Positions 18,990-37,733 of a stretch of 37,733 nt of DNA are shown here, one piece after another. The stretch comes from Candidatus Kapaibacterium sp. (GTDB taxonomy: Bacteria > Bacteroidota > Ignavibacteria > Kapaibacteriales > Kapaibacteriaceae), in NCBI GenBank assembly GCA_018882895.1, contig VERF01000019.1, forward strand, positions 1 to 37,733, written 5' to 3'. The notes beneath the pieces were generated by a model. That model did no database searches and was not told the origin of the DNA. It saw only the letters and a program-made list of their open reading frames with translations. The position numbers were made by a program, and so were the translations under genes. Position 1 is the first letter of the stretch; the number at the start of each line of letters is the position of its first letter.

Positions 18990-20402
18990 ATGTTCTTTCA
19001 GCAGATCTACGAGACTGGCCTGGCCCATGCTTCCTACATGGTGGGATGCCAGAAGACCGGCGAATGCCTGGTGATTGATGCCAAGCGCGATGTGGACACC
19101 TACCTGCAGATCGCCAAGCGAGAGGGCCTGCGAATCACGCATTTGGCCGAAACGCACATCCATGCCGACTTCCTGAGCGGAACCCGGGAACTGGCCGCTC
19201 TGACGGGCGCGCCGATGTACCTCAGCGATGAAGGGGGCTCGGAGTGGCAATACGAGTTCGACCACGTTGGGGTGCGCGACGCGGACGTCTTCATGGTCGG
19301 CAACATCAAGATGCAGGTCATGCACACGCCGGGCCACACCCCCGAACACATTTGTTTTCTGGCCACCGACACCCCGGCCATTGCCGATCAGCCGATCATG
19401 ATCTTCACGGGTGACTTCGTCTTTGTGGGCGACGTTGGACGTCCGGACCTCTTGGAGAAGGCCGCCGGCTACCGTGGGACGATGGAGGTGGGAGCTCGCC
19501 AGATGTGGGAGTCGCTCAAGAAGTTCAGGGCGCTGGCGGACCATATCCAGGTTCACCCCGCGCACGGCGCCGGCTCGGCCTGTGGCAAGGCCCTGGGCGC
19601 AATTCCATCGTCGACCGTCGGATATGAGAAACTCGTCAACTGGGCCCTGCGCCATACAGACGAACAGGCATTTGTAGACGAGCTCCTGGCGGGTCAGCCA
19701 GAGCCCCCTCGCTACTTCGCCATGATGAAGAAGCTCAACAAGGTTGTGCGTCCGCTGCTGACCGAGGTGCCGACGCTCCGGCAGCTCACGGTCGAGGACC
19801 TGTCGGCGGCGGTTGCGAATCACGACATGATCATTGATGCCCGCTCAAAGGTTTCCTTTGCAGGGGGCCACCTGCCGGGGTCGATCAACATCCAGAACAA
19901 CAAGTCCTTCTCGACATGGGCCGGGTGGATGGTGCCGTATGACCGCCCCTTTGTCATCATCGCCCACGATGAGCATGTTGAGGAGATCACGCGCAAGCTC
20001 ATGAGGATCGGACTCGACGCTATCGCAGGGGTCAGCAACAACGTTACCGACTGGCAGGGGGCTGGCCACGACCTTGTAGAGCTCCCTCAGATACACCTCG
20101 ACGAGCTGGCTGATGCATACAATGCTCCGGACATTGCCGTCATCGACGTGCGGGCATTCTCCGAGCACGTGTCCGGCCACATTCCCGGCGCCCGGCACAT
20201 CCATGGCGGGTATCTGCGGGATCACCTGCAGGAGATCCCGAAGGACCGCACGGTGGTGATCGCATGTCAGGGCGGCGACCGCTCCAGCATTGCTGCGAGC
20301 TACCTCCAGCGCGAGGGCTTCACCAACATCCGCAATTTCCCACAGGGGTTTGGTGGCTGGAAGGCTGCCGGCAACCCCATCGAAGAAGGAATCACACAAT
20401 GA
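18990..20402 (+). CDS. persulfide dioxygenase-rhodanese fusion (CstB-like)
   Basis: This is a 470-residue cytosolic protein. The metallo-beta-lactamase domain (about 1-240) has ETHIHADFLSG (His56, His58, Asp60), HTPGHTPEH (His116), GDFVFVGDVGRPD (Asp142) and a later HPAHGAGS. These are the ligand positions of ETHE1-type persulfide dioxygenases with one iron. A central rhodanese-homology domain (about 262-360) lacks the active cysteine (IIAHDEHVEE). A C-terminal rhodanese (about 370-465) keeps it in ACQGGDRSS (Cys426). The same three-part order is known from staphylococcal CstB, which oxidises persulfides to sulfite and thiosulfate. The Phe after HAD, where many enzymes have His, is common in this subfamily. 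It overlaps the next gene by four bases. Confidence 0.88.
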   Translation: MFFQQIYETGLAHASYMVGCQKTGECLVIDAKRDVDTYLQIAKREGLRITHLAETHIHADFLSGTRELAALTGAPMYLSDEGGSEWQYEFDHVGVRDADVFMVGNIKMQVMHTPGHTPEHICFLATDTPAIADQPIMIFTGDFVFVGDVGRPDLLEKAAGYRGTMEVGARQMWESLKKFRALADHIQVHPAHGAGSACGKALGAIPSSTVGYEKLVNWALRHTDEQAFVDELLAGQPEPPRYFAMMKKLNKVVRPLLTEVPTLRQLTVEDLSAAVANHDMIIDARSKVSFAGGHLPGSINIQNNKSFSTWAGWMVPYDRPFVIIAHDEHVEEITRKLMRIGLDAIAGVSNNVTDWQGAGHDLVELPQIHLDELADAYNAPDIAVIDVRAFSEHVSGHIPGARHIHGGYLRDHLQEIPKDRTVVIACQGGDRSSIAASYLQREGFTNIRNFPQGFGGWKAAGNPIEEGITQ

Positions 20403-20692
20403 TCAACGAGATCATGCCAGATGCGCTCAAGGCACGCCTTGCATCAAACGAAAACGTCATCCTGCTCGACGTGCGTCAACCCGAGGAGCACGCAGAAAAG
20501 AACATTCCGAACTCGATGCTCATCCCGCTCGGCGAACTGCCGATGCGCATGGGCGAACTCGATGCCTACAAAGACAAGGAGCTGATCGTCTACTGCCGCT
20601 CCGGTAACCGCAGCGGTCAGGCCTGCATGCTCCTGCAAATGTCGGGCTTTGCAAACCCGGTGAACCTGCGCGGCGGCATGCTGGCCTGGTAG
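20399..20692 (+). CDS. single-domain rhodanese (sulfurtransferase)
   Basis: This is a 97-residue protein started at the ATG overlapping the upstream stop (ATGA). An earlier in-frame start would read through the end of the fusion gene. It has the rhodanese pattern VILLDVRQPEEHAEKNIPNS, then the active loop YCRSGNRSGQA with the catalytic Cys, then NLRGGMLAW. It should carry sulfane sulfur as a Cys persulfide, either feeding the dioxygenase or receiving sulfur from low-molecular-weight persulfides. It is similar in size to GlpE/PspE-type sulfurtransferases. Confidence 0.9.
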   Translation: MINEIMPDALKARLASNENVILLDVRQPEEHAEKNIPNSMLIPLGELPMRMGELDAYKDKELIVYCRSGNRSGQACMLLQMSGFANPVNLRGGMLAW

Positions 20693-20708
20693 GCCGAGCT
20701 CTGCAACG

Positions 20709-21455
20709 ATGGTCCTGCTCTCGATCATTGCCCTCGTCATCGGCATCTCACTCGGCCTGATCGGCGCCGGCGGCGCCATTGTGGCCGTGCCGGCGCTGGT
20801 GTACATCGGGAACATCGAGCCGCACCTGGCCAGCGGCTACGCCCTTTTCATGGTCGCCGTGGCCTCGGCCATCGCCTCGGTGCAGCACATACGGCAACGC
20901 CGGGTGGACGTGCCATCGGTGCTGGCTTTCGGCAGCACCACGATCATCTCCATCCTGCTGGTGCGGCGCTTCGTGGCACCACTGGTGCCTTCCACGGTTC
21001 AGATGATCTGCTTCGGAGCAGTCCTCCTGATCGCCGCCATCCGTATGCTACAGGCCTCGTCGCCCCCTTCAGAGACTGCGCAGCGTCCGGCATTTCTGGC
21101 CCTCTATGGCCTTATAATCGGTGCCATCAGCGGTATCCTCGGTGTGGGAGGGGGCTTTTTGATGACGCCCGCCCTTGTGCTCTGGGCTGGCCTCGATATG
21201 AAGCGAGCCGTAGCCACATCGCTGGTTCTGATCAGCATCAACTCCGCCGTTGGCGTGGCTGCCGACGTGTGGGCCGGCACCCCCTACGACTGGCCCCTCG
21301 TGCTCGGGTTCACGGGTCTGACCACGCTCGGCATCCTGGCCGGCATCATCCTCTCCCACCGCATCGATGGCTCAACCCTGCGCAGCGGCTTCGGCTGGGT
21401 GGTGCTTGCCATCGGTCTGGCAGTGCTGGTAAGAGAAGCACTCAATAGTTACTAG
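20709..21455 (+). CDS. TauE/SafE (TSUP) family sulfite exporter
   Basis: This is a 248-residue inner-membrane protein with about eight hydrophobic segments in two homologous halves. The repeat signature GLIGAGGAIVAVPAL near the start and GILGVGGGFLMTPAL in the middle are typical of the TSUP family. Placed behind a persulfide dioxygenase and a rhodanese, it most likely exports sulfite or thiosulfate made by them, as in cst-type operons. The start is 16 bases after the rhodanese stop. The stop codon TAG lies inside the second unit of a tandem heptamer array, so the last residues NSY are encoded by the start of the repeat. Confidence 0.88.
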   Translation: MVLLSIIALVIGISLGLIGAGGAIVAVPALVYIGNIEPHLASGYALFMVAVASAIASVQHIRQRRVDVPSVLAFGSTTIISILLVRRFVAPLVPSTVQMICFGAVLLIAAIRMLQASSPPSETAQRPAFLALYGLIIGAISGILGVGGGFLMTPALVLWAGLDMKRAVATSLVLISINSAVGVAADVWAGTPYDWPLVLGFTGLTTLGILAGIILSHRIDGSTLRSGFGWVVLAIGLAVLVREALNSY

Positions 21456-29402: not shown

Positions 29403-30737
29403 TCAGTATCCCTGTCGGTTCCAGGGTTCAACCACGTCGACGTAAGGTTGGATGGCTGACTCGACAAGTGCGGGCACGCCGGAGGCACCGACAACCCATG
29501 TATCGGTTGAGTACAGACGCCGTTGCACGTCGATAAGGTCATCAGCCGTCAGCTCCTGAATCCGTCGAACGTAGTGCTCGAAGAAGTCGAACGGCAGCGA
29601 ATAGGTCAGCAGCGTGTGAACGAGCCATGCCGTCTGCTGCGGCGTCTCACACGAGCGGGCAAACGAGCCCACGATGTACCGGCGCGCACTGTCAAGTTCA
29701 TCGTCACTGATCTTCTCCGAGCCCAAACGCGTCACCTCAGAGGCGATCGTTGCGATGGTATCGGCGGTAAAGTCATTACCGACACTCGTAGACAGGACCG
29801 CTGCCGCATCCAATGACCGCACGAGGGTGCTTGCATAAGCGCCATAGGTGTAGCCCTTTTCCTCGCGCAGGATCGTAAACAGCCGTGCGAGAGTGAATCC
29901 GCCAAGTACGTTCGTTATCAGTTGAGCAGCGGCATAGTCGGGATGACCCATAGGGAGGGCCGGAACGATGATCCGGAACGACGTCTGTACGGCATCGTCA
30001 AGTCCGGCTACGACGCCCACCCCTTGGCGCTTCACAGGAGGCGCTATATCGGCAAGGGCAGTTGATGCCGGCATCGCACCGAAAGCCCCCTCAAGCACCG
30101 ACATGGCACGTTCACGCGTGACCGGACCGGCAACAATGATCCAACGCGGAGCCGTCAGCAGCCGGTTGTGTGCCGCATGCAGATCACCGACCGTCAGCGT
30201 GGCCAGCGAGGCGGGACTGCCCAGACTCGCATGCGCATACGGATGCTTGTCGTAAGCCCCCTGACTGGCCGCACGCGACGCCAACCAATCAACATCTGCC
30301 ATGTCGATCATTAGGTCGGCAACAATGCGCGCGCGCAGCTTCTCGAGCTCTTCTTGCTCGAGAAGTGGTCTCAGTATGCAATCTGACATCAGGCCAGCAA
30401 GATCTTCGAACCACTCGCCCAGACCGGTTGCCTGAATGGATGCCCCATCGTGATCGACGGAGGTCCTGATCCAGCAGCCGCGACTTTCAACTTCTTCGTT
30501 GAAGTCCTTGGTGCTGTGGCGTTGCGTTCCCTGCTTGAGCATCTCCATGGTCATGGAGGTCTCTCCGCGAACTGCATCCCGGCTTGATCCCCCGCGCATG
30601 GCGAGCGTGATGGTGAGAATGTCCTTGGTGGTGGACGGTACGATATACACCGGGGTGCCATTCGAGAGCACTGCTGAGTCAAATTCAGGCATCACAAACG
30701 TCAGAGGCGTACTAGCTAGCAATGGGGCTGTATCCAT
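29403..30737 (-). CDS. M16 family peptidase-like protein without the zinc site
   Basis: This is a 444-residue protein with two M16-type halves. In the first, the place of the HxxEH zinc motif reads RGETSMTMEMLKQGT, so the metal ligands are lost. The second half keeps the substrate-contact segment LARLFTILREEKGYTYGAY, with the R and Y typical of non-catalytic subunits. In known M16B pairs this subunit partners with an active one to form a clam-shell protease. No active partner is in the window. There is no clear signal peptide. ATG 30737 leaves only 17 bases to the divergent SDR gene; Met at 30692 is an alternative start. Confidence 0.83.
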   Translation of the reverse strand: MDTAPLLASTPLTFVMPEFDSAVLSNGTPVYIVPSTTKDILTITLAMRGGSSRDAVRGETSMTMEMLKQGTQRHSTKDFNEEVESRGCWIRTSVDHDGASIQATGLGEWFEDLAGLMSDCILRPLLEQEELEKLRARIVADLMIDMADVDWLASRAASQGAYDKHPYAHASLGSPASLATLTVGDLHAAHNRLLTAPRWIIVAGPVTRERAMSVLEGAFGAMPASTALADIAPPVKRQGVGVVAGLDDAVQTSFRIIVPALPMGHPDYAAAQLITNVLGGFTLARLFTILREEKGYTYGAYASTLVRSLDAAAVLSTSVGNDFTADTIATIASEVTRLGSEKISDDELDSARRYIVGSFARSCETPQQTAWLVHTLLTYSLPFDFFEHYVRRIQELTADDLIDVQRRLYSTDTWVVGASGVPALVESAIQPYVDVVEPWNRQGY

Positions 30738-30754
30738 TTGATAAATTTACGGCA

Positions 30755-31519
30755 ATGAATCCCTCACACGTCATCATTACCGGCGCATCTTCAGGCATTG
30801 GCCGGGCCTGCGCCCATGCATTCGCCGAACTTGGCTCCAATCTGTCACTATGGGCCCGCCGGCAGGATCGACTTCAGGAGCTGGCCGAAGAGCTCACAAG
30901 CCGCCACGGCATCACGGTTCACACCGCAACGGTGGACGTGCGGCATCTCGCCGAGGTGCGCTCTGCAGTGGCGTCGCTGCCAGCCCCCTTTCAATCGCCG
31001 GATGTGCTGGTGAACAATGCCGGACTTTCGCGCGGACTCGTTCCGCTGCAGGAAGGGGAGATCCAGGACTGGGAGGAGATGATCGACACGAACATCAAGG
31101 GGCTTCTGTACGTTACCCGCTCGATCCTGCCGAACATGGTGAATCGAGCTACGGGGCTGATTGTGAACATCGCATCGATCGCCGGCATCCAGCCCTATCG
31201 TGGCGGCAATGTATATGGGGCAACCAAGGCCGCCGTTAAGATGCTCTCAGACTCTCTGCAGATCGATGTCAACGGCACGGGCGTGCGCATCTGTAACATC
31301 GACCCGGGACTGGTTGAGACGGAGTTCTCTCAGGTGCGCTTTCATGGTGATACCGACCGAGCAGCGACGGTGTACAAGGGATATCAACCGTTGAGCGGAC
31401 GCGATATCGCAGACTGTGTGATCTTTGCAGCCACACGTCCGGCGCACGTCAGCATCCAGGACATTCTCATCACACCAACGGCACAGGCTAGCGTGAACCT
31501 CACGGACAAGCGCCTGTAA
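30755..31519 (+). CDS. SDR family oxidoreductase, YdfG-like
   Basis: This is a 254-residue classical short-chain dehydrogenase. It has the cofactor loop TGASSGIG (9-16), NNAG, the catalytic Ser in NIASIAG and the YxxxK pair in VYGATKAA. An Arg pair after the second strand (WARRQDRL) favours NADP(H). The IDPGLVETEFSQVRFHGD segment is like that of YdfG-type 3-hydroxy acid dehydrogenases. The ATG at 30755 is chosen because the preceding in-frame codons are poor in family character. It begins a long plus-strand gene run, with acylphosphatase 18 bases downstream. Confidence 0.9.
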   Translation: MNPSHVIITGASSGIGRACAHAFAELGSNLSLWARRQDRLQELAEELTSRHGITVHTATVDVRHLAEVRSAVASLPAPFQSPDVLVNNAGLSRGLVPLQEGEIQDWEEMIDTNIKGLLYVTRSILPNMVNRATGLIVNIASIAGIQPYRGGNVYGATKAAVKMLSDSLQIDVNGTGVRICNIDPGLVETEFSQVRFHGDTDRAATVYKGYQPLSGRDIADCVIFAATRPAHVSIQDILITPTAQASVNLTDKRL

Positions 31520-31537
31520 CGTCTCAATGGATCATCT

Positions 31538-31807
31538 TTGGAAACCGTACACTACATCATCGAAGGTCGCGTGCAACGCGTTGGCTTCCGCCGCTTCGCT
31601 CTCCACCATGCGCACAGGCTCGACCTGCGCGGCTTCGTCACCAATCTTGAAGATGGCTCCGTCGAATGCGTCGCCCAAGGAACCGTGCAATCGCTGACAG
31701 AGTTTGAAATGGTCCTGCGCCAGGGTCCGCAATTTGCAGAGGTCACATCCGTTACATGCGCGGACTTTGCGCAGCATCGGGACTTTCACACGTTCCGAAT
31801 TCTTTGA
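31538..31807 (+). CDS. acylphosphatase
   Basis: This is an 89-residue protein that hydrolyses acyl phosphates such as acetyl phosphate. The family signature GRVQRVGFRRF holds the catalytic Arg, and GFVTNLEDGSVE holds the catalytic Asn. Size is normal for the family (about 90). The start must be TTG at 31538: the same frame reaches the stop of the previous gene six codons earlier and has no ATG or GTG in between. It sits between two SDR genes and is probably co-transcribed. Confidence 0.9.
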   Translation: METVHYIIEGRVQRVGFRRFALHHAHRLDLRGFVTNLEDGSVECVAQGTVQSLTEFEMVLRQGPQFAEVTSVTCADFAQHRDFHTFRIL

Positions 31808-31836
31808 CTTTTTTACAATTCGAGCAAAAGAGAGCC

Positions 31837-32718
31837 ATGAACCTCGACGTCAACTCCGTTGTCGTGATCACCGGCGCGTCCTCCGGACTTGGCGCCGCCC
31901 TTGCCACAAATGCTGCATCCCGTGGCTGCACTGTCGTGCTGGTGGCCCGCCGTGCGGACCGACTTCAAAGCGTTGCCGATGCGGTAACACAACGCGGTGG
32001 CAGGGCATTCTGCATCGTGGCAGATGTCTCCCAAGAGAGTGAATGCAACCGCGTCATTGGTGAGGTGATCGCCTCGCACGGTCGCATCGACGTGCTGATA
32101 AACAACGCCGGACGTGGCAACATGAACAGTGTTGAGGATACACCAACCGAGCAATGGCGATCGATGTTCGCAGTGAACGTCGACTCCGTCTTTTGGCTCA
32201 CCGCCCGTGCCCTGCCGCACATGCGTGCCCGCAACGCGGGAAGCATCGTTGCCATCTCGAGTGTTGCCGGACGCTATGGTCACCCCTTCAACGCCGCCTA
32301 TGTAGCTGCCAAGCACGCCGTGGTGGGATTCATCGCCGCCCTTCGAACCGAACTTGTGGGCACGAACATCAACGCCACGGTGGTCTGCCCTGCCGGCATC
32401 ACCACCGAATGGGGTGATGTTACCGAAGGGGGCTCTATCGGCGCACTCTACGGTGCGGCGATTCCGCGCTCACGCACCATCGCCCGCGAGAGCGGTCTGG
32501 CCACGGCGCCGCTTTCACGCATGATGTCGGCCGACGAGTGCGCGACGGTCATCATTGATGCCGTGCTGGCCGGACGCAGCGATGATGTGTTCACGCACAC
32601 GGGAACAAAGGACATAGCCGTTCAGACCGTCCAAGACCGCTGCGCCCAGGAAGACCGATTCGAGGCTCTCTGGCTGGCGATGCGGCAAGCATACGATTCA
32701 TCACATGGCACAACCTGA
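31837..32718 (+). CDS. SDR family oxidoreductase
   Basis: This is a 293-residue short-chain dehydrogenase, with TGASSGLG, ARRADRL (NADP(H) preference), NNAGRG, ISSVAGRYG with the catalytic Ser, and YVAAKHA as the YxxxK pair. The C-terminal extension of about 40 residues beyond the usual core contains a helical segment. Start ATG 31837 has AAGAGAG upstream; a longer in-frame version would overlap the acylphosphatase gene. It differs enough from the SDR two genes upstream that a recent tandem copy is unlikely. Substrate unknown. Confidence 0.9.
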   Translation: MNLDVNSVVVITGASSGLGAALATNAASRGCTVVLVARRADRLQSVADAVTQRGGRAFCIVADVSQESECNRVIGEVIASHGRIDVLINNAGRGNMNSVEDTPTEQWRSMFAVNVDSVFWLTARALPHMRARNAGSIVAISSVAGRYGHPFNAAYVAAKHAVVGFIAALRTELVGTNINATVVCPAGITTEWGDVTEGGSIGALYGAAIPRSRTIARESGLATAPLSRMMSADECATVIIDAVLAGRSDDVFTHTGTKDIAVQTVQDRCAQEDRFEALWLAMRQAYDSSHGTT

Positions 32719-32729
32719 GCGTTGACACC

Positions 32730-35132
32730 ATGCGGGCAATTGCGATATCTGCACTCCTTTGCCTCATCACGATCTCGGCCTCGGCCCAGCGTGAGCGCAT
32801 TGCTCTTGTCCTCACCGGAGGGGGCGCGCGCGGTCTGTCCCAGATCGGCGTCCTGAAGGTACTCGAACGCGAGGGCATTCGCCCTGACATGATCGTGGGT
32901 TGTTCCTTTGGGAGCGTGGTGGGTGCACTCTATGCGACCGGGCACACGGCCGATGAGATCGACAGTATCATGCGCGATATAGACTGGGACGACATCGTCT
33001 CGCTCAGGCCCGACTCGGAGCGCGAGTACATGTTTCTGTCGCAAAAGCAGGAAAGCGATCAGAATCTGCTGAAGCTGCGCTTCAACAACTTCTCAATGCT
33101 GCCCCCCACTGCCATCGGAGGAAGCGCGCGGTTCTCGCTTCTGCTGCAGCATATCCTCTGGAAGAGTCCGTACGGCCACGAGGTCGACTTCGATCAGCTG
33201 CGCATACCCTTGCGCGTGGTCTCAACGAACCTGGCCAACGGGCGACTCGCAGTGCTGAGCCGTGGCAATCTGGCTCTGGCCGTGCGGGCAAGTGCAACCT
33301 TTCCATTGCGGTACTCTCCGGTTCGGTGGAGTGATGACTCGATCCTGGTTGATGGAGGACTGGTGGCCAACATCCCCACCGATGTGGCTCGCGCGCTCGG
33401 TGCAACGAAGATCATCGTCGTCAACACCGTCAGCCCCCTGGAACGACCTGAAGCACTCACCACCGCTTTGTCGATCGCAGACCAAGCACTGATGTCGTCA
33501 ATGAAGCTGCGCGACTCGGCGCGGCTTGCCGATGCCGACGTGGTGATCACCCCGGATCTTGGTGGCCGCACGACATTTGACTTTGACGAAGTCGACTCCA
33601 TGGTTGCCTTCGGGATGCGATCTGCAGAAGCGCAGCTTGACGCACTTCGCCCCCTGGCGCGCACACGTTCTGCCACCAATGGCTCCTATGCGTGTCCGCC
33701 GATCCGCATCACGACGGTTGATGCCGATACCGCGCTGGCGGAATTGATCCAGTCCGACATGTCCGGCGTACGTTCCTACCCATCGCAGGAGATCTGCCGC
33801 CGCGAGATCCGTACGGATGTTCTCCGTGCCCTGCGCCGCCGTGGCTACGAGCATGCCTTCGTTCGGTCAATGAACACCGAGGGTTCGGACATCTCGATAC
33901 AGATCGATCGTGGCATAGCGGCGTCGACGGCGTTTCGACTGCATCCGGATGTGAGCCCGAGTGATGTCGACAGAGAGCTTGCCTTTCGGGGCAGCGACAC
34001 GCTCACGCTAAACGGCCTTGTACGCAGTTGGCAGAACCTTACCGCGAGCGACCTGCTGACCGAGGTCGACATGCGCACCGAGCCCCAGTCTGATCGGGGA
34101 ACTCTCGTCACGATCTCCGCCCGCAGTCAGGGTAATCAATCCGTCGGCGTTGGCCTGCGCGTCGACAACGAGCGCTACACCCAGGGGTCTCTTCAGCTGA
34201 CGCAGGAGAGTTTTTTCATTCCGGGTCTGCGTCTCTTTGCAAGGGGCTCGATAAGCGAGCGCATTGGCTCGCTGAACGTCGGATTGGAGATCCCTCGCAT
34301 CGCGGGTTCGCTCTGGACCACGACCATGCGGGCGTACACCAGCTTCCGAAACGTATGGGTGTATGGTGTGCGCGAGGGACGCCCCATTCATGATCCGGCA
34401 CTTTTGCGAGTAGCGGAGTTTTCCGAGGATCGCAATGGCCTGCGTCTTAGTGCCGGACGTCAGCTTGAGCGGAATGGTGTGGTGCTTGGAGAGTTTCGCT
34501 ATGAAAGACTCCGATACCGCGACCTGGCGTCAACCCAGCGCACATCCTTTCAAACGATCGGAACCGTAAGAGCTGTTGCTCGCTGGGATGATCGCGATCG
34601 AATTGCCTACGCCAGCCGCGGACGTATGATCGATCTGTTCGCCGAGACATCGGTTCTTCCTCTTTCCAACGACGTCTCGTTCACAAAGCTCTCAGCTGCC
34701 GCATCATCCGTCTTCGAGTTGGGCTGGCTTACGTTCACCCCGTCGGCAATGATCGGAGCTGCAGACAGAACGCTACCGTCGGCGGAGTTGTTTTCGCTGG
34801 GTGGACAGGATATGCTCTTCGGGATGCGGGAGGACCAGATCCGTGGACGTCAGATCATCGTCGGCAACTTTGACTTCCGCGCCCGAATGCCCTTCAAGAT
34901 CTTCTTCGACACGTACTTTTCAGTACGCTACGACGTTGGTGCGGTGTGGGAGAACCCCGAGTTCATTCGCATCGATCAACTACGTCAGGGCATCGGTGCA
35001 ACATTGGGCATCGATTCTCCGATCGGACCCGTCAACATCTCGCTGGGTAAATGCTTCTACCGTCTGCCACAGAGCACCCGAATCGTGGTCGAGCCGCTAC
35101 TGCTCTACTTCAGCCTCGGCGCACGATTGTAA
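32730..35132 (+). CDS. PlpD-like patatin phospholipase fused to an outer-membrane beta-barrel
   Basis: This is an 800-residue protein with a signal peptide (ALLCLITISASAQ). The patatin domain (about 22-300) has the oxyanion loop GGGARG (30-35), the nucleophile elbow GCSFG (Ser59) and the catalytic Asp in VDGGL (Asp208). This gives a Ser-Asp lipase dyad. A POTRA-like part follows, then a BamA/surface antigen barrel. The barrel is seen in strands such as SVGVGLRVDNERYTQGSLQL, FARGSISERIGSLNVGLEI and PVNISLGKCFYRL, ending YFSLGARL. This order is that of type Vd (PlpD) autotransporters, where the barrel displays the lipase outside or in the periplasm. It is co-directional with its neighbours, with 11- and 9-base gaps. 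Confidence 0.92.
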   Translation: MRAIAISALLCLITISASAQRERIALVLTGGGARGLSQIGVLKVLEREGIRPDMIVGCSFGSVVGALYATGHTADEIDSIMRDIDWDDIVSLRPDSEREYMFLSQKQESDQNLLKLRFNNFSMLPPTAIGGSARFSLLLQHILWKSPYGHEVDFDQLRIPLRVVSTNLANGRLAVLSRGNLALAVRASATFPLRYSPVRWSDDSILVDGGLVANIPTDVARALGATKIIVVNTVSPLERPEALTTALSIADQALMSSMKLRDSARLADADVVITPDLGGRTTFDFDEVDSMVAFGMRSAEAQLDALRPLARTRSATNGSYACPPIRITTVDADTALAELIQSDMSGVRSYPSQEICRREIRTDVLRALRRRGYEHAFVRSMNTEGSDISIQIDRGIAASTAFRLHPDVSPSDVDRELAFRGSDTLTLNGLVRSWQNLTASDLLTEVDMRTEPQSDRGTLVTISARSQGNQSVGVGLRVDNERYTQGSLQLTQESFFIPGLRLFARGSISERIGSLNVGLEIPRIAGSLWTTTMRAYTSFRNVWVYGVREGRPIHDPALLRVAEFSEDRNGLRLSAGRQLERNGVVLGEFRYERLRYRDLASTQRTSFQTIGTVRAVARWDDRDRIAYASRGRMIDLFAETSVLPLSNDVSFTKLSAAASSVFELGWLTFTPSAMIGAADRTLPSAELFSLGGQDMLFGMREDQIRGRQIIVGNFDFRARMPFKIFFDTYFSVRYDVGAVWENPEFIRIDQLRQGIGATLGIDSPIGPVNISLGKCFYRLPQSTRIVVEPLLLYFSLGARL

Positions 35133-35141
35133 TTTGCCGTT

Positions 35142-35576
35142 ATGGGACAACTGCTTGACCGTCTTCGCAACTACGTCAGAGCCTCCGTGTCGTCCGGCAC
35201 TGGCAGCTCGGGCAAGGCGTGGGCGGATCGCATGATCGACTCGGAGGACGATGAACTTCGGCGCATCATTGAGGAGCTCAGCAGTGAACCGGCACGCGGT
35301 GCGACGTCGGGTAGCGCGACGTCGGATTCTTCGTTCCGACGTTCAACACCTCCGCCGGACCTACCCACCGATGTCGTGCGAGCACACACAATGCTCAACG
35401 TCCCGGTCACGGCCGACGCGGCGGCCATCAAGCAGGCTTACAAGACAGCGATCGCCCGCTGGCATCCGGATCGTCACGCAAGCTCATCGGCCGAAGAGCA
35501 GGCACGTGCCCATCAGCGTGCCCGCGAGATCAATAGTGCCTACGCTACGCTCAAAAAGTTTTACTCGATCACATAA
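35142..35576 (+). CDS. small J-domain protein (DnaJ-like)
   Basis: This is a 144-residue protein with a J domain at its C-terminus (about 80-142): AHTMLNVPVTADAAAIKQAY, then RWHPDRH with the HPD motif at 108-110, then REINSAYATLKKF. The HPD motif stimulates a DnaK-type ATPase. No Gly/Phe or zinc-finger region follows, so this is a class III J protein. The first 75 residues are low-complexity and rich in Ser, Gly and Pro, with an acidic patch (DSEDDELRRIIEEL) that may bind a client. It starts nine bases after the patatin-barrel gene, suggesting a chaperone role for a neighbour, though that is inference. Confidence 0.87.
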   Translation: MGQLLDRLRNYVRASVSSGTGSSGKAWADRMIDSEDDELRRIIEELSSEPARGATSGSATSDSSFRRSTPPPDLPTDVVRAHTMLNVPVTADAAAIKQAYKTAIARWHPDRHASSSAEEQARAHQRAREINSAYATLKKFYSIT

Positions 35577-35581
35577 CGACC

Positions 35582-36586
35582 ATGGAACGTACCATCTTCG
35601 AACGCATCATTGCGCGTGAGATCCCGTCGACCATCGAGTACGAGGACGACGAGATCATTGCCATTCGCGACATAGCACCGAGCGCCCCTTTGCACCTGCT
35701 CATCATCCCGAAGCGGGTGATACGAAGCGTCGATACTCTCGAGCAGGCCGACGCCGAACTTGTGGGCCGTGTGTTCCTTGTTGCCCGCGACCTTGCCCGT
35801 AAGCACGGAGTGGCTGAAGATGGGTATCGTGTGGTGACCAACTGCAACGACCATGGTGGTCAGACGGTATTCCACCTGCACTTCCATCTGTTGGCTGGCC
35901 AGCCCCTTGGCCGCATGAACTCACAGGCACCGACGGCACCGAAGGCCTCATCCTCCATGCTCTTTGAAGGGGGCTTACTGGTGCTGGCAGCCATCTGCAT
36001 GGCGGCGGTGTTCAACTCCATGAATCCGAAGCAGATTCCCTGGGTGAAAAAGGAATACGAACGCACCCAGGCAACGTCGAGCGAGATCGAACGCTATCTG
36101 GCGCCAGCCCCGGTTCCTGGTGCTGCGCAAGGTGCCGTGCCGAGCATGCCGACGGCCCCGACAGAGCAGGCGACCAGTGCGACGTCAACGTCACCCAAGC
36201 CATCGGAAACCCCGGCAACGGCCGCCGAAAAGCCGGCTGAGCGTCCCAAGAGCACCTTCGTGGCCGAGCCCGGCATGGTGCGCGAGATCGGCTACGAGGC
36301 CTTCGTGCGCCTGATGTCTGCCGGCCCGTTTCATCTGATCGATGCCCGCGGAGCCGAGAAGTTTGCCGAAGGACACATCCCCGGTGCCGTGAACATCTAT
36401 GGTGGCGAGGCTCAATCACGTATTCCCGACATTCTTCAGTCACCCCGCGACCGCGTCATTCTGATCTATTGCGACGGCGGCGAATGTGAGCTTTCGCACC
36501 ACGTGGCCGACGTGCTAAAGCAGTTCGGATTCGGCCCAATCTTCATCTACACCGGCGGCTGGGCCGAGTGGCAGACCAAGCGCTGA
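35582..36586 (+). CDS. HIT-transmembrane-rhodanese fusion protein
   Basis: This is a 334-residue protein with three parts. Residues 1-110 are a complete HINT-type HIT domain: TIEYEDDEIIAIRDI, PLHLLIIPKR, and the nucleotide-binding HLHFH (His98, His100, His102). Residues about 126-147 are one hydrophobic segment (LLVLAAICMAAVF). A Pro/Ala/Thr-rich linker (about 165-230) leads to a rhodanese domain (about 231-334) with FHLIDARGAEKFAEGHIPGAV and YCDGGECELS (Cys297). HIT proteins hydrolyse nucleotide phosphoramidates in the cytosol; the rhodanese would then lie across the inner membrane. The usual HIT ending GWPPG is replaced by GRMNSQ. Met112 or Met126 could also start a separate membrane rhodanese. 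It lies in a tight gene run, with gaps of 5 and 9 bases. Confidence 0.88.
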   Translation: MERTIFERIIAREIPSTIEYEDDEIIAIRDIAPSAPLHLLIIPKRVIRSVDTLEQADAELVGRVFLVARDLARKHGVAEDGYRVVTNCNDHGGQTVFHLHFHLLAGQPLGRMNSQAPTAPKASSSMLFEGGLLVLAAICMAAVFNSMNPKQIPWVKKEYERTQATSSEIERYLAPAPVPGAAQGAVPSMPTAPTEQATSATSTSPKPSETPATAAEKPAERPKSTFVAEPGMVREIGYEAFVRLMSAGPFHLIDARGAEKFAEGHIPGAVNIYGGEAQSRIPDILQSPRDRVILIYCDGGECELSHHVADVLKQFGFGPIFIYTGGWAEWQTKR

Positions 36587-36595
36587 GCACCTCTT

Positions 36596-37733
36596 ATGCA
36601 ACCCTCGCGTCAACTTCTGCGACAACTGGCCGTTCGCTTTGGCCTCATCGGCGAGTCACCGGCGATGGTCCAAGCCATGTCTCGCCTTCTGCAGGTAGCT
36701 CCAACGGATATCTCCGTTCTGGTAACCGGCGAGACCGGCACCGGCAAGGAGGTATTTGCTCATGCCGTGCACGACCTGAGCGCCCGCAAGAAAGCCCCCT
36801 TCGTAAGTGTCAACTGCGGGGCCATCCCAGAGACGCTCCTAGAGAGCGAACTCTTTGGAGCCGAGAAAGGGGCTTTCACCGGCTCGGTAGAACAGCGCAA
36901 GGGCTTCTTCGAGACGGCGCATCGCGGCACCATCTTCCTTGATGAGATCGGCGAGATGCCCATCTCCACACAAGTAAAGTTGTTGAGGATTCTTGAGTCG
37001 GGAGAATACTCTCGCCTCGGTTCCTCCGACGTCCTGAAGGTCGACGTCCGCATCGTTGCCGCCACAAATCGCGACCTTGCCTACGAGGTGCGTCAGGGCC
37101 GATTCCGGCAGGACCTGTATTTCCGCCTCAACAGCGTGAACATCCATCTGCCACCGCTGCGGCAGCATCCCGAAGACATAGAGCATCTGGTGGAGCACTT
37201 TGCGCATCGTGCTGCCGAGAAGAACATCCTCACCTACAACGGTATCGACGCAAAGGCTCTGCAGCTGCTGGAACGTCAGGCATGGCCCGGCAACGTGCGC
37301 GAACTCCGCAACATCATCGAAACAATGGTAACCCTCGAGCAAGGGGCTCGCATTACAGAGGAGATGGTACTTCGCTACCTTCCCGTGGAACCGGATCACC
37401 AGCAGCCCCCGGCCACGGCACTGATGAGTCTGCCCTTGCCAAGTCAGCGCCCCCAAGACTTCGACGTACAGACACTCTACCGTGCCCTTCTTCAGCTTTC
37501 AACCGATGTAGCAGAGGTGAAGTCGATCCTCCGCCACCTGCTCTCGATGAGCGTCCAACACGTCGCCCCCCTGCCCGGCGATGCCCCCTCCCCCATGCCA
37601 CCCCCCGTCTCAGCAGATCCGCTGGAGATCCGCCCACGCGCCACCTCCCCCGCATCCCCCCTACCTACCGATCAACTCGACCTTGCAACCCTCGAACGCC
37701 AAGCCATCGAAACCGCCCTGCGCCGCACTCAAG
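36596..37733 (+). CDS. sigma-54-dependent transcriptional activator (3' end cut off)
   Basis: The frame opens at ATG 36596 and is still open at the window end (379 codons). It begins almost directly with the AAA+ domain, so there is no N-terminal receiver, PAS or GAF domain. Seen in order are Walker A GETGTGKE (45-52), the sigma-54 contact loop GAFTGS (92-97), Walker B GTIFLDEIGEM (111-121), the arginine-finger region FRQDLYFRLN and WPGNVRELRN. A long Pro-rich linker then follows, and LDLATLERQAIETALRRTQ is the beginning of a Fis-type DNA-binding domain. The loop normally reads GAFTGA; Ser replaces the last Ala. It follows the HIT-rhodanese gene by nine bases. It probably activates sigma-54 promoters, with activity set by partner proteins or its own level. 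Confidence 0.92.
   Translation, partial: MQPSRQLLRQLAVRFGLIGESPAMVQAMSRLLQVAPTDISVLVTGETGTGKEVFAHAVHDLSARKKAPFVSVNCGAIPETLLESELFGAEKGAFTGSVEQRKGFFETAHRGTIFLDEIGEMPISTQVKLLRILESGEYSRLGSSDVLKVDVRIVAATNRDLAYEVRQGRFRQDLYFRLNSVNIHLPPLRQHPEDIEHLVEHFAHRAAEKNILTYNGIDAKALQLLERQAWPGNVRELRNIIETMVTLEQGARITEEMVLRYLPVEPDHQQPPATALMSLPLPSQRPQDFDVQTLYRALLQLSTDVAEVKSILRHLLSMSVQHVAPLPGDAPSPMPPPVSADPLEIRPRATSPASPLPTDQLDLATLERQAIETALRRTQ

Follow-up and report, generated by a model that had tools for sequence, protein, structure and literature searches.

Does a HIT domain that runs on in the same reading frame through a membrane segment into a rhodanese form part of a genuine single protein, and if so, what would such a protein do and how did it arise? 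The locus that raises these questions lies in a stretch of 37,733 nucleotides from a Candidatus Kapaibacterium contig (VERF01000019.1), analysed whole and referred to here as the window. An ORF of 334 residues with an ATG start and no internal stop occupies positions 35582 to 36586 of its forward strand. The initial annotation had described this ORF as a HIT domain with an HLHFH motif joined in one frame to a transmembrane (TM) helix, a linker and a rhodanese with Cys297, a description confirmed by Pfam, by AlphaFold2 and by the ORF itself. From its N-terminus onward the protein consists of a HIT domain resembling E. coli HinT, a hydrophobic helix at residues 126-147, a linker rich in Ala, Pro and Thr, and the rhodanese. 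The features of the gene are:

35582..36586, forward strand: HIT-TM-rhodanese fusion gene, 334 amino acids (single ORF; Pfam HIT and Rhodanese)
35591..35911, forward strand: HinT-type HIT domain, residues 4-110 (Pfam; PDB sequence match; fold match)
35873..35887, forward strand: histidine triad HLHFH, residues 98-102 (alignment of 16 sequences; 23 family genomes)
35915..35917, forward strand: Met112, closing the C-terminal tail of HinT (23/23 family genomes; alignment with E. coli PLGPM)
35957..36022, forward strand: one hydrophobic helix predicted to span the membrane, residues 126-147 (AlphaFold2; Kyte-Doolittle)
36050..36259, forward strand: linker rich in Ala, Pro, Thr and Ser, residues 157-226 (composition; pLDDT below 50 at residues 176-224)
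36260..36583, forward strand: rhodanese domain, residues 227-334, with the loop C297-D-G-G-E-C302 (Pfam; alignment of 16 sequences)

Pfam places HIT at residues 12-107 (E 9e-24, above the curated cut-off), DcpS_C at residues 4-105 and Rhodanese at residues 241-332 (E 5.9e-18; 65.6 bits against a cut-off of 22.2 for PF00581). An AlphaFold2 model, built from the window protein aligned with 15 relatives (16 sequences in all), has a mean pLDDT of 71.0 and a pTM of 0.42. It includes a HIT fold, the helix at residues 126-147, disorder (pLDDT below 50) at residues 176-224 and rhodanese-type secondary structure, and it leaves the placing of the HIT and rhodanese domains relative to each other unfixed.

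Genome contigs were scanned with peptide patterns taken from the window protein, so that the scan covers fusions similar to it in sequence, and 80 of 97 relatives were kept. Nearly full-length matches were found at 16 of the 80 kept loci (at L015 starting from residue 10), and each of the 16 is a single ORF. Within the order 123 genomes were searched, 23 from the window's family and 100 from other families, and both halves were found in one frame in all 23 family genomes, including G404, in which the sequence ends with its contig at residue 308, and G407, which is without the first residues of the HIT domain. The two sets overlap, so that 23 is the count of species. The recurrence of the architecture in related genomes, which the initial annotation had put forward as a check, is thus established, and the single frame in 23/23 genomes rules out the assembly error or frameshift that it had considered. 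Because the 16 nearly full-length loci and the 23 family genomes all show one frame, chance is excluded as well, and the fusion is confirmed as a real, single gene. In the three close pairs tested, the HIT part has dN/dS values of 0.047-0.083 and the rhodanese part values of 0.058-0.091; both are under purifying selection. Values above those of both domains were obtained for the junction and helix (0.09-0.80) and for the linker, which was saturated in one pair and gave 0.23-0.33 in the other two.

Sequence and fold agree on the identity of the N-terminal half. Its best PDB sequence match is E. coli HinT (3n1s; E 2.7e-34, about 52% identity over 111 columns), followed in the ranking by HIT-family hydrolases and HINT1/HINT2. 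Foldseek also returned chains of 3n1s at the top (best E 1.1e-14, target-normalised TM 0.83-0.86); the best 50 solved matches listed are all HIT/HINT proteins, so that the fold comparison covers the HIT half. The nearest relatives are HinT/HINT proteins rather than Fhit, GalT or aprataxin, and the HINT motif H-x-H-x-H-x-x, in which x is hydrophobic, is present as HLHFHLL. All 16 aligned sequences share H38, N87, G93, Q94, T95, H98, H100 and H102, and 22 of the 23 family genomes keep a complete triad, the exception being G407, with Gln in place of the first His. With its catalytic residues intact the domain looks active, and H100 is expected to be its nucleophile. The score against the NCBIfam equivalog for purine nucleoside phosphoramidase is below the cut-off (PRK10687; 127.2 bits against 206). 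The C-terminal tail of HinT is also preserved, reading PLGRM in the window protein; its Met, Met112, is kept in 23/23 family genomes and falls opposite the Met of PLGPM when aligned to the E. coli tail. In E. coli HinT, Met113 is reported to extend into the pocket of the adjacent protomer (PMC12375108), and changes in the C-terminal loop are reported to alter both activity and specificity (PMC7157772).

The rhodanese half retains the catalytic Cys-x-x-Gly element as C297-D-G-G, and Cys-Asp-Gly-Gly is found in all 23 fused proteins. The loop, CDGGEC, ends in Cys instead of the Arg of CxxGxR, and its residues from C297 to C302 do not vary among the 16 sequences of the alignment. A loop of the form Cys-x-Gly-x-(x)-Cys was present in all 54 rhodaneses compared, 23 of them fused and 31 the stand-alone homologues described below. 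A pattern search of the window's genome gave six further rhodanese loops; these are of the CxxGxR type, with Arg at the end, and one of them is a residue longer. Compared with 6mxv, the stretch between the Cys and the next conserved helix residues is longer by two residues. Because this rhodanese is without the Arg that normally ends the loop, sulfurtransferase activity is unsure, and its two conserved cysteines suggest a persulfide/disulfide switch. The NCBIfam models for PspE gave scores far under their cut-offs (23.9 bits against 102 and 22.1 against 126.3). A separate sulfur-handling cluster lies elsewhere in the window, at 18990-21455; it includes a TauE/SafE exporter, a protein of metallo-beta-lactamase fold that contains two rhodanese stretches, and another rhodanese gene.

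Outside the family no stop-free join of HIT to rhodanese was found, either among the matches listed for the 100 genomes of the order's other families or among those listed for the 385 others in a 395-genome sample of the phylum. In the cases read there, HIT is mostly a short gene, and a homologue of residues ~123-333 is encoded at another locus. The initial annotation had named a pair of separate genes with a stop codon at the junction as the contrary case; no such pair was found, the two genes lying at different loci in the cases read outside the family. The stand-alone homologue has a short N-terminus followed by the helix, a linker and the rhodanese. Of these stand-alone TM-rhodanese loci we read 31, of which 30 belong to the order and the remaining one, L118, to the class; they were drawn from the matches listed, G467, G470, G480 and G481 being among those left out. 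At none of the 31 does a HIT gene lie beside the rhodanese.

Several loci that might have extended the distribution of the fusion were set aside. Matches running past residue 112 at L098 (G073) and L101 (G018) are stand-alone HITs that end at a stop, and L110 (G179) and L114 (G195) are HIT-only ORFs by BLAST; matches past residue 112 with inner stops in G135, G183 and G392 are among those left out. The large frame at L147 (G398) has no domain recognised by eye upstream of its rhodanese, that at L153 (G414) is a stand-alone HIT, and those at L195 and L196 encode a different HIT protein. No HIT-rhodanese fusion was found among the matches listed from the open full-text literature, a collection outside which subscription papers mostly fall. 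One paper that contains both HIT and rhodanese concerns, in the text available, a HIT fusion that is NitFhit and is separate from its rhodaneses (PMC13257105).

When 91 HIT domains were placed in a tree, a branch with 99/96 support, recovered in 99% of bootstrap trees, set the 23 fused ones apart from the rest. Since the fused domains fall on one side of a well-supported branch, a single origin of the fusion at the base of one family is the simplest reading, rather than a proof, from a short tree of 112 columns rooted at its midpoint. A HIT model matched the fused domain in 23/23 family genomes (77.7-94.5 bits) and gave a second, weaker match in 22 of them (42.9-71.1 bits; none in G403). The second HIT of the window genome, the only one of these that was read, is a 174-residue frame of another type. 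It thus seems that the family has no HinT-type protein other than the fused one.

The neighbours of the fusion gene bear on the order in which its parts came together. Three genes on the same strand adjoin it:

32730..35132, forward strand: patatin and Omp85 gene, separated by 9 bases from the J gene that follows (Pfam Patatin E 1.7e-32, Omp85 E 2.4e-15)
35142..35576, forward strand: gene for a J-domain protein, 5 bases before the fusion gene (Pfam DnaJ E 3.1e-10)
36596..37733, forward strand: gene for a receiverless sigma-54 activator, truncated where the contig ends (Pfam Sigma54_activat starting at residue 17)

The patatin-Omp85, J, fusion and activator genes stand in a row with gaps of 9, 5 and 9 bases, and the patatin-Omp85 gene is a recurrent neighbour. 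The stretch at 30722-32718, which leads into the patatin gene, carries two short-chain dehydrogenases and, between them, an 89-residue ORF (31538-31807) whose motif suggests a putative acylphosphatase. A J gene lies directly upstream of the fusion in 21/23 family genomes (not found in G404 and G101), and an activator lies directly downstream in 21/23 (not found in G404, at a contig end, and G377). The G377 locus (L194, G377:C49) has a J gene upstream of the fusion and no sigma-54 activator match within 3 kb downstream. At the stand-alone loci, the rhodanese is followed directly by the activator in 25/31 (not found at L117, L118, L126, L128, L186 and L188) and preceded directly by a J gene in 15/31, with one further J remnant.

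No receiver domain was found in the activator. Its AAA+ domain begins at residue 17 in the window protein and at residues 17-33 in the four full-length orthologues scanned, all four of which end in a Fis-type helix-turn-helix (HTH_8). The neighbour and its orthologues thus have the layout of PspF, a receiverless AAA+ sigma-54 activator with a Fis helix-turn-helix; the contig-cut window protein falls below the NCBIfam pspF cut-off (276.9 bits against 443.55). The window genome encodes a sigma-54 factor and gave one other strong activator match and two weak ones. A sigma-54 promoter pattern (-24/-12), allowed up to 2 mismatches, was matched 24 times in the window against 21.3 expected, and 33 shuffles had as many; no promoter stands out.

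An operon of J protein, two-cysteine TM-rhodanese and receiverless sigma-54 activator is found across the order, for example at L116, L120, L122 and L124. Because these neighbours are shared with stand-alone loci that have no HIT, HinT would have joined a pre-existing TM-rhodanese/activator operon later; gene order indicates that the operon is older than the fusion and HinT a late addition to it. The initial annotation had proposed that the fusion and the adjacent J-domain and activator genes could make a stress-signalling unit. The neighbours are there and recur in the order, which makes such a unit plausible as gene order only, but the HIT domain is a late addition and not part of its core. 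The pair of two-cysteine TM-rhodanese and receiverless activator, often accompanied by the J protein, looks like an envelope module; among the matches listed, the literature near this pair was phage-shock or other rhodanese work only.

Taken together, we regard the protein, with rather more confidence than doubt, as a membrane-tethered cytoplasmic HinT joined to a periplasmic two-cysteine rhodanese and captured once into an older operon, a reading in which we infer the catalysis, the dimer, the topology and any coupling. The N-terminal domain would be an E. coli-type HinT, most likely cytoplasmic and probably the usual homodimer; its candidate substrates are phosphoramidates of purine nucleosides or acyl-adenylates and, less surely, nucleoside thiophosphates. 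The HinT tail and a short spacer would lead into a single membrane helix, and a long flexible linker from there to the rhodanese in the periplasm, whose unusual CDGGEC loop could hold a persulfide or a disulfide. The TM-rhodanese would be the old part, kept across the order mostly in an operon with the activator and often the J protein; HinT would have been captured by in-frame fusion to its N-terminus, most simply once, at the base of the family, and the product would be expressed together with the J protein and the activator. HINT1 is reported to convert nucleoside thiophosphates to NMP and H2S (PMC8775712), and E. coli PspE is described as a periplasmic rhodanese that transfers sulfur from thiosulfate to give glutathione persulfide (PMC10215317). 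Given these two chemistries, sulfur chemistry on both sides of the membrane is conceivable, by an analogy that is no demonstration of coupling.

A serious rival, which we consider possible and yet clearly less probable, is that the fusion was an accident of rearrangement, kept as the family's sole copy of HinT, with two domains unrelated in function and a tether that serves no purpose. The TM-rhodanese does occur without HIT across the order, no HIT gene accompanies it at the stand-alone loci read, and both the linker and the spacer between HinT tail and helix vary among relatives in length and sequence. At L015:3680-4960 (the L142 sequence, from G407, one of the 21 genomes counted above as having an upstream J gene) a truncated J protein runs in frame into the HIT domain of the fusion, and at L183:2078-3046 a truncated J protein runs in frame into a TM-rhodanese. 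These may be true deletions or assembly faults; they suggest that joins can arise at this spot. As a J/TM-rhodanese fusion the L183 frame was rejected, holding only the N-terminal part of a J protein with no DnaJ in Pfam, and at L186 the J match is a chance one in the linker. Against an accident stand the 23 family genomes, none of which has split the fusion again and none of which shows a free HinT, and the purifying selection on both domains in the three pairs tested.

The tethered-HinT reading depends on which way the helix crosses the membrane. The best 19-residue Kyte-Doolittle mean is 2.26 in the window protein and 1.39-2.52 across the 23 fused proteins. The number of Lys and Arg in the 20 residues after the helix is at least that in the 20 before it in 22/23 fused proteins, and among the stand-alone TM-rhodaneses the count before the helix is at least that after it in only 7/14 (for L118 the window of measurement fell on another hydrophobic stretch). 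Because of these two counts, the positive-charge rule does not favour an inward N-terminus. The stand-alone proteins have a short N-terminus followed by the helix, in the manner of a signal anchor, with at least 2 N-terminal Lys/Arg in 10/14. Two features nevertheless favour an arrangement with HIT inside and the rhodanese outside, namely the type of linker and the fact that the ancestral helix is N-terminal; we judge this arrangement distinctly probable, though the charge counts do not support it. The proposal of the initial annotation that nucleotide chemistry takes place inside and sulfane-sulfur chemistry outside the inner membrane therefore stays plausible, but draws no support from the charges around the helix. 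In another family of the same order, L195:1232-2359 (G271:C28) and L196 (G471:C162, a sequence containing unknown bases) encode a HIT domain after a stretch that resembles a signal peptide by eye, followed by about 220 residues in which Pfam finds no domain at E 0.001. These are predicted to be an exported HinT-like protein, and if so, the L195 protein would mean that a HIT domain need not be cytoplasmic.

The charge counts also bear on a rather unlikely alternative, in which the two domains would share a compartment and act together as a direct sulfur-nucleotide enzyme. The HIT domain would free sulfide from a nucleoside thiophosphate or a sulfated nucleotide and the rhodanese Cys would take it up, the helix being merely a membrane attachment or inserted in the opposite orientation. 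The HINT1 reaction noted above and the positive charges after the helix in 22/23 proteins are in keeping with this scheme; the 22-residue helix and long disordered linker that separate the domains, and the signal-anchor-like N-terminal helix of the stand-alone relatives, argue against it. We know of no bacterial source of free nucleoside thiophosphates.

Marginally less probable still is an elaboration of the tethered HinT into a transmembrane sulfur-to-nucleotide switch, in which the CxGGxC rhodanese would sense reactive sulfur or oxidation, alter the HinT dimer and so set the activator. A persulfide or disulfide formed in the periplasm would act through paired membrane helices on the attached HinT dimer; AMP-type modifications or adenylates in the cytoplasm would change and, together with the J protein, set the receiverless sigma-54 activator. 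The spacer from the tail Met to the helix is 13 residues long in the window protein and 8-52 residues among the 23, a range that disfavours tight mechanical coupling of HinT to the helix; a rigid link to the HinT dimer interface is possible in the window protein and generally unlikely. A switch of this sort, if it operates, would represent a novel type of envelope stress system in which one family uses HinT as the signalling enzyme.

Very improbable is the idea that a second start or proteolysis also yields a free TM-rhodanese, as the initial annotation had suggested for starts at Met112 or Met126: the order's stand-alone TM-rhodaneses do begin shortly before the same helix, but Met112 belongs to the HinT tail and Met126 is absent in 11 of the 16 aligned sequences, and ribosome-binding motifs, visible neither before these two codons nor before real starts, carry little weight.

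HinT is widespread. Its role in bacteria has been described as poorly defined (PMC1173108). The present family has apparently swapped a free HinT for a membrane-anchored form, and so offers a natural experiment on the place and partners of HinT.

Among known systems, E. coli YgaP is also a membrane-attached rhodanese and is not known to have a HIT domain. Its soluble domain is described as cytoplasmic in the title of PMC3551814. To our knowledge, the phage shock operon contains no HIT or J gene. That system, as described in the portions of the papers available, does bring together a periplasmic single-domain rhodanese, PspE, and a sigma-54 activator, PspF (PMC10215317, PMC9239133); the PspE and PspF models match the rhodanese and activator here weakly, far below their curated cut-offs, and PspE has a signal peptide, whereas the protein described here has an anchor and a HIT domain. 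NitFhit of invertebrates likewise joins a member of the HIT superfamily to another enzyme, but it combines Fhit with a nitrilase, with no membrane helix described in the accessible part of its source, whereas the fusion here combines HinT with a rhodanese (PMC13257105). In the Mollicutes, the hitABL genes encode HinT together with the membrane proteins P60 and P80, and in M. hominis it is bound to a membrane complex at the surface; this HinT is a separate cytoplasmic protein, and rhodanese is mentioned nowhere in the paper, whereas in the present family the link is covalent (PMC1173108). The tie between the Mollicutes HinT and the membrane proteins of its operon provides a precedent for HinT at the membrane. 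With bacterial HinT itself (E. coli YcfF, of the HINT branch) the fusion protein has in common the fold, the histidine triad and the PLGxM tail; there the protein is free and ends after about 115-120 residues, whereas here it continues into the hydrophobic helix, the linker and the rhodanese.
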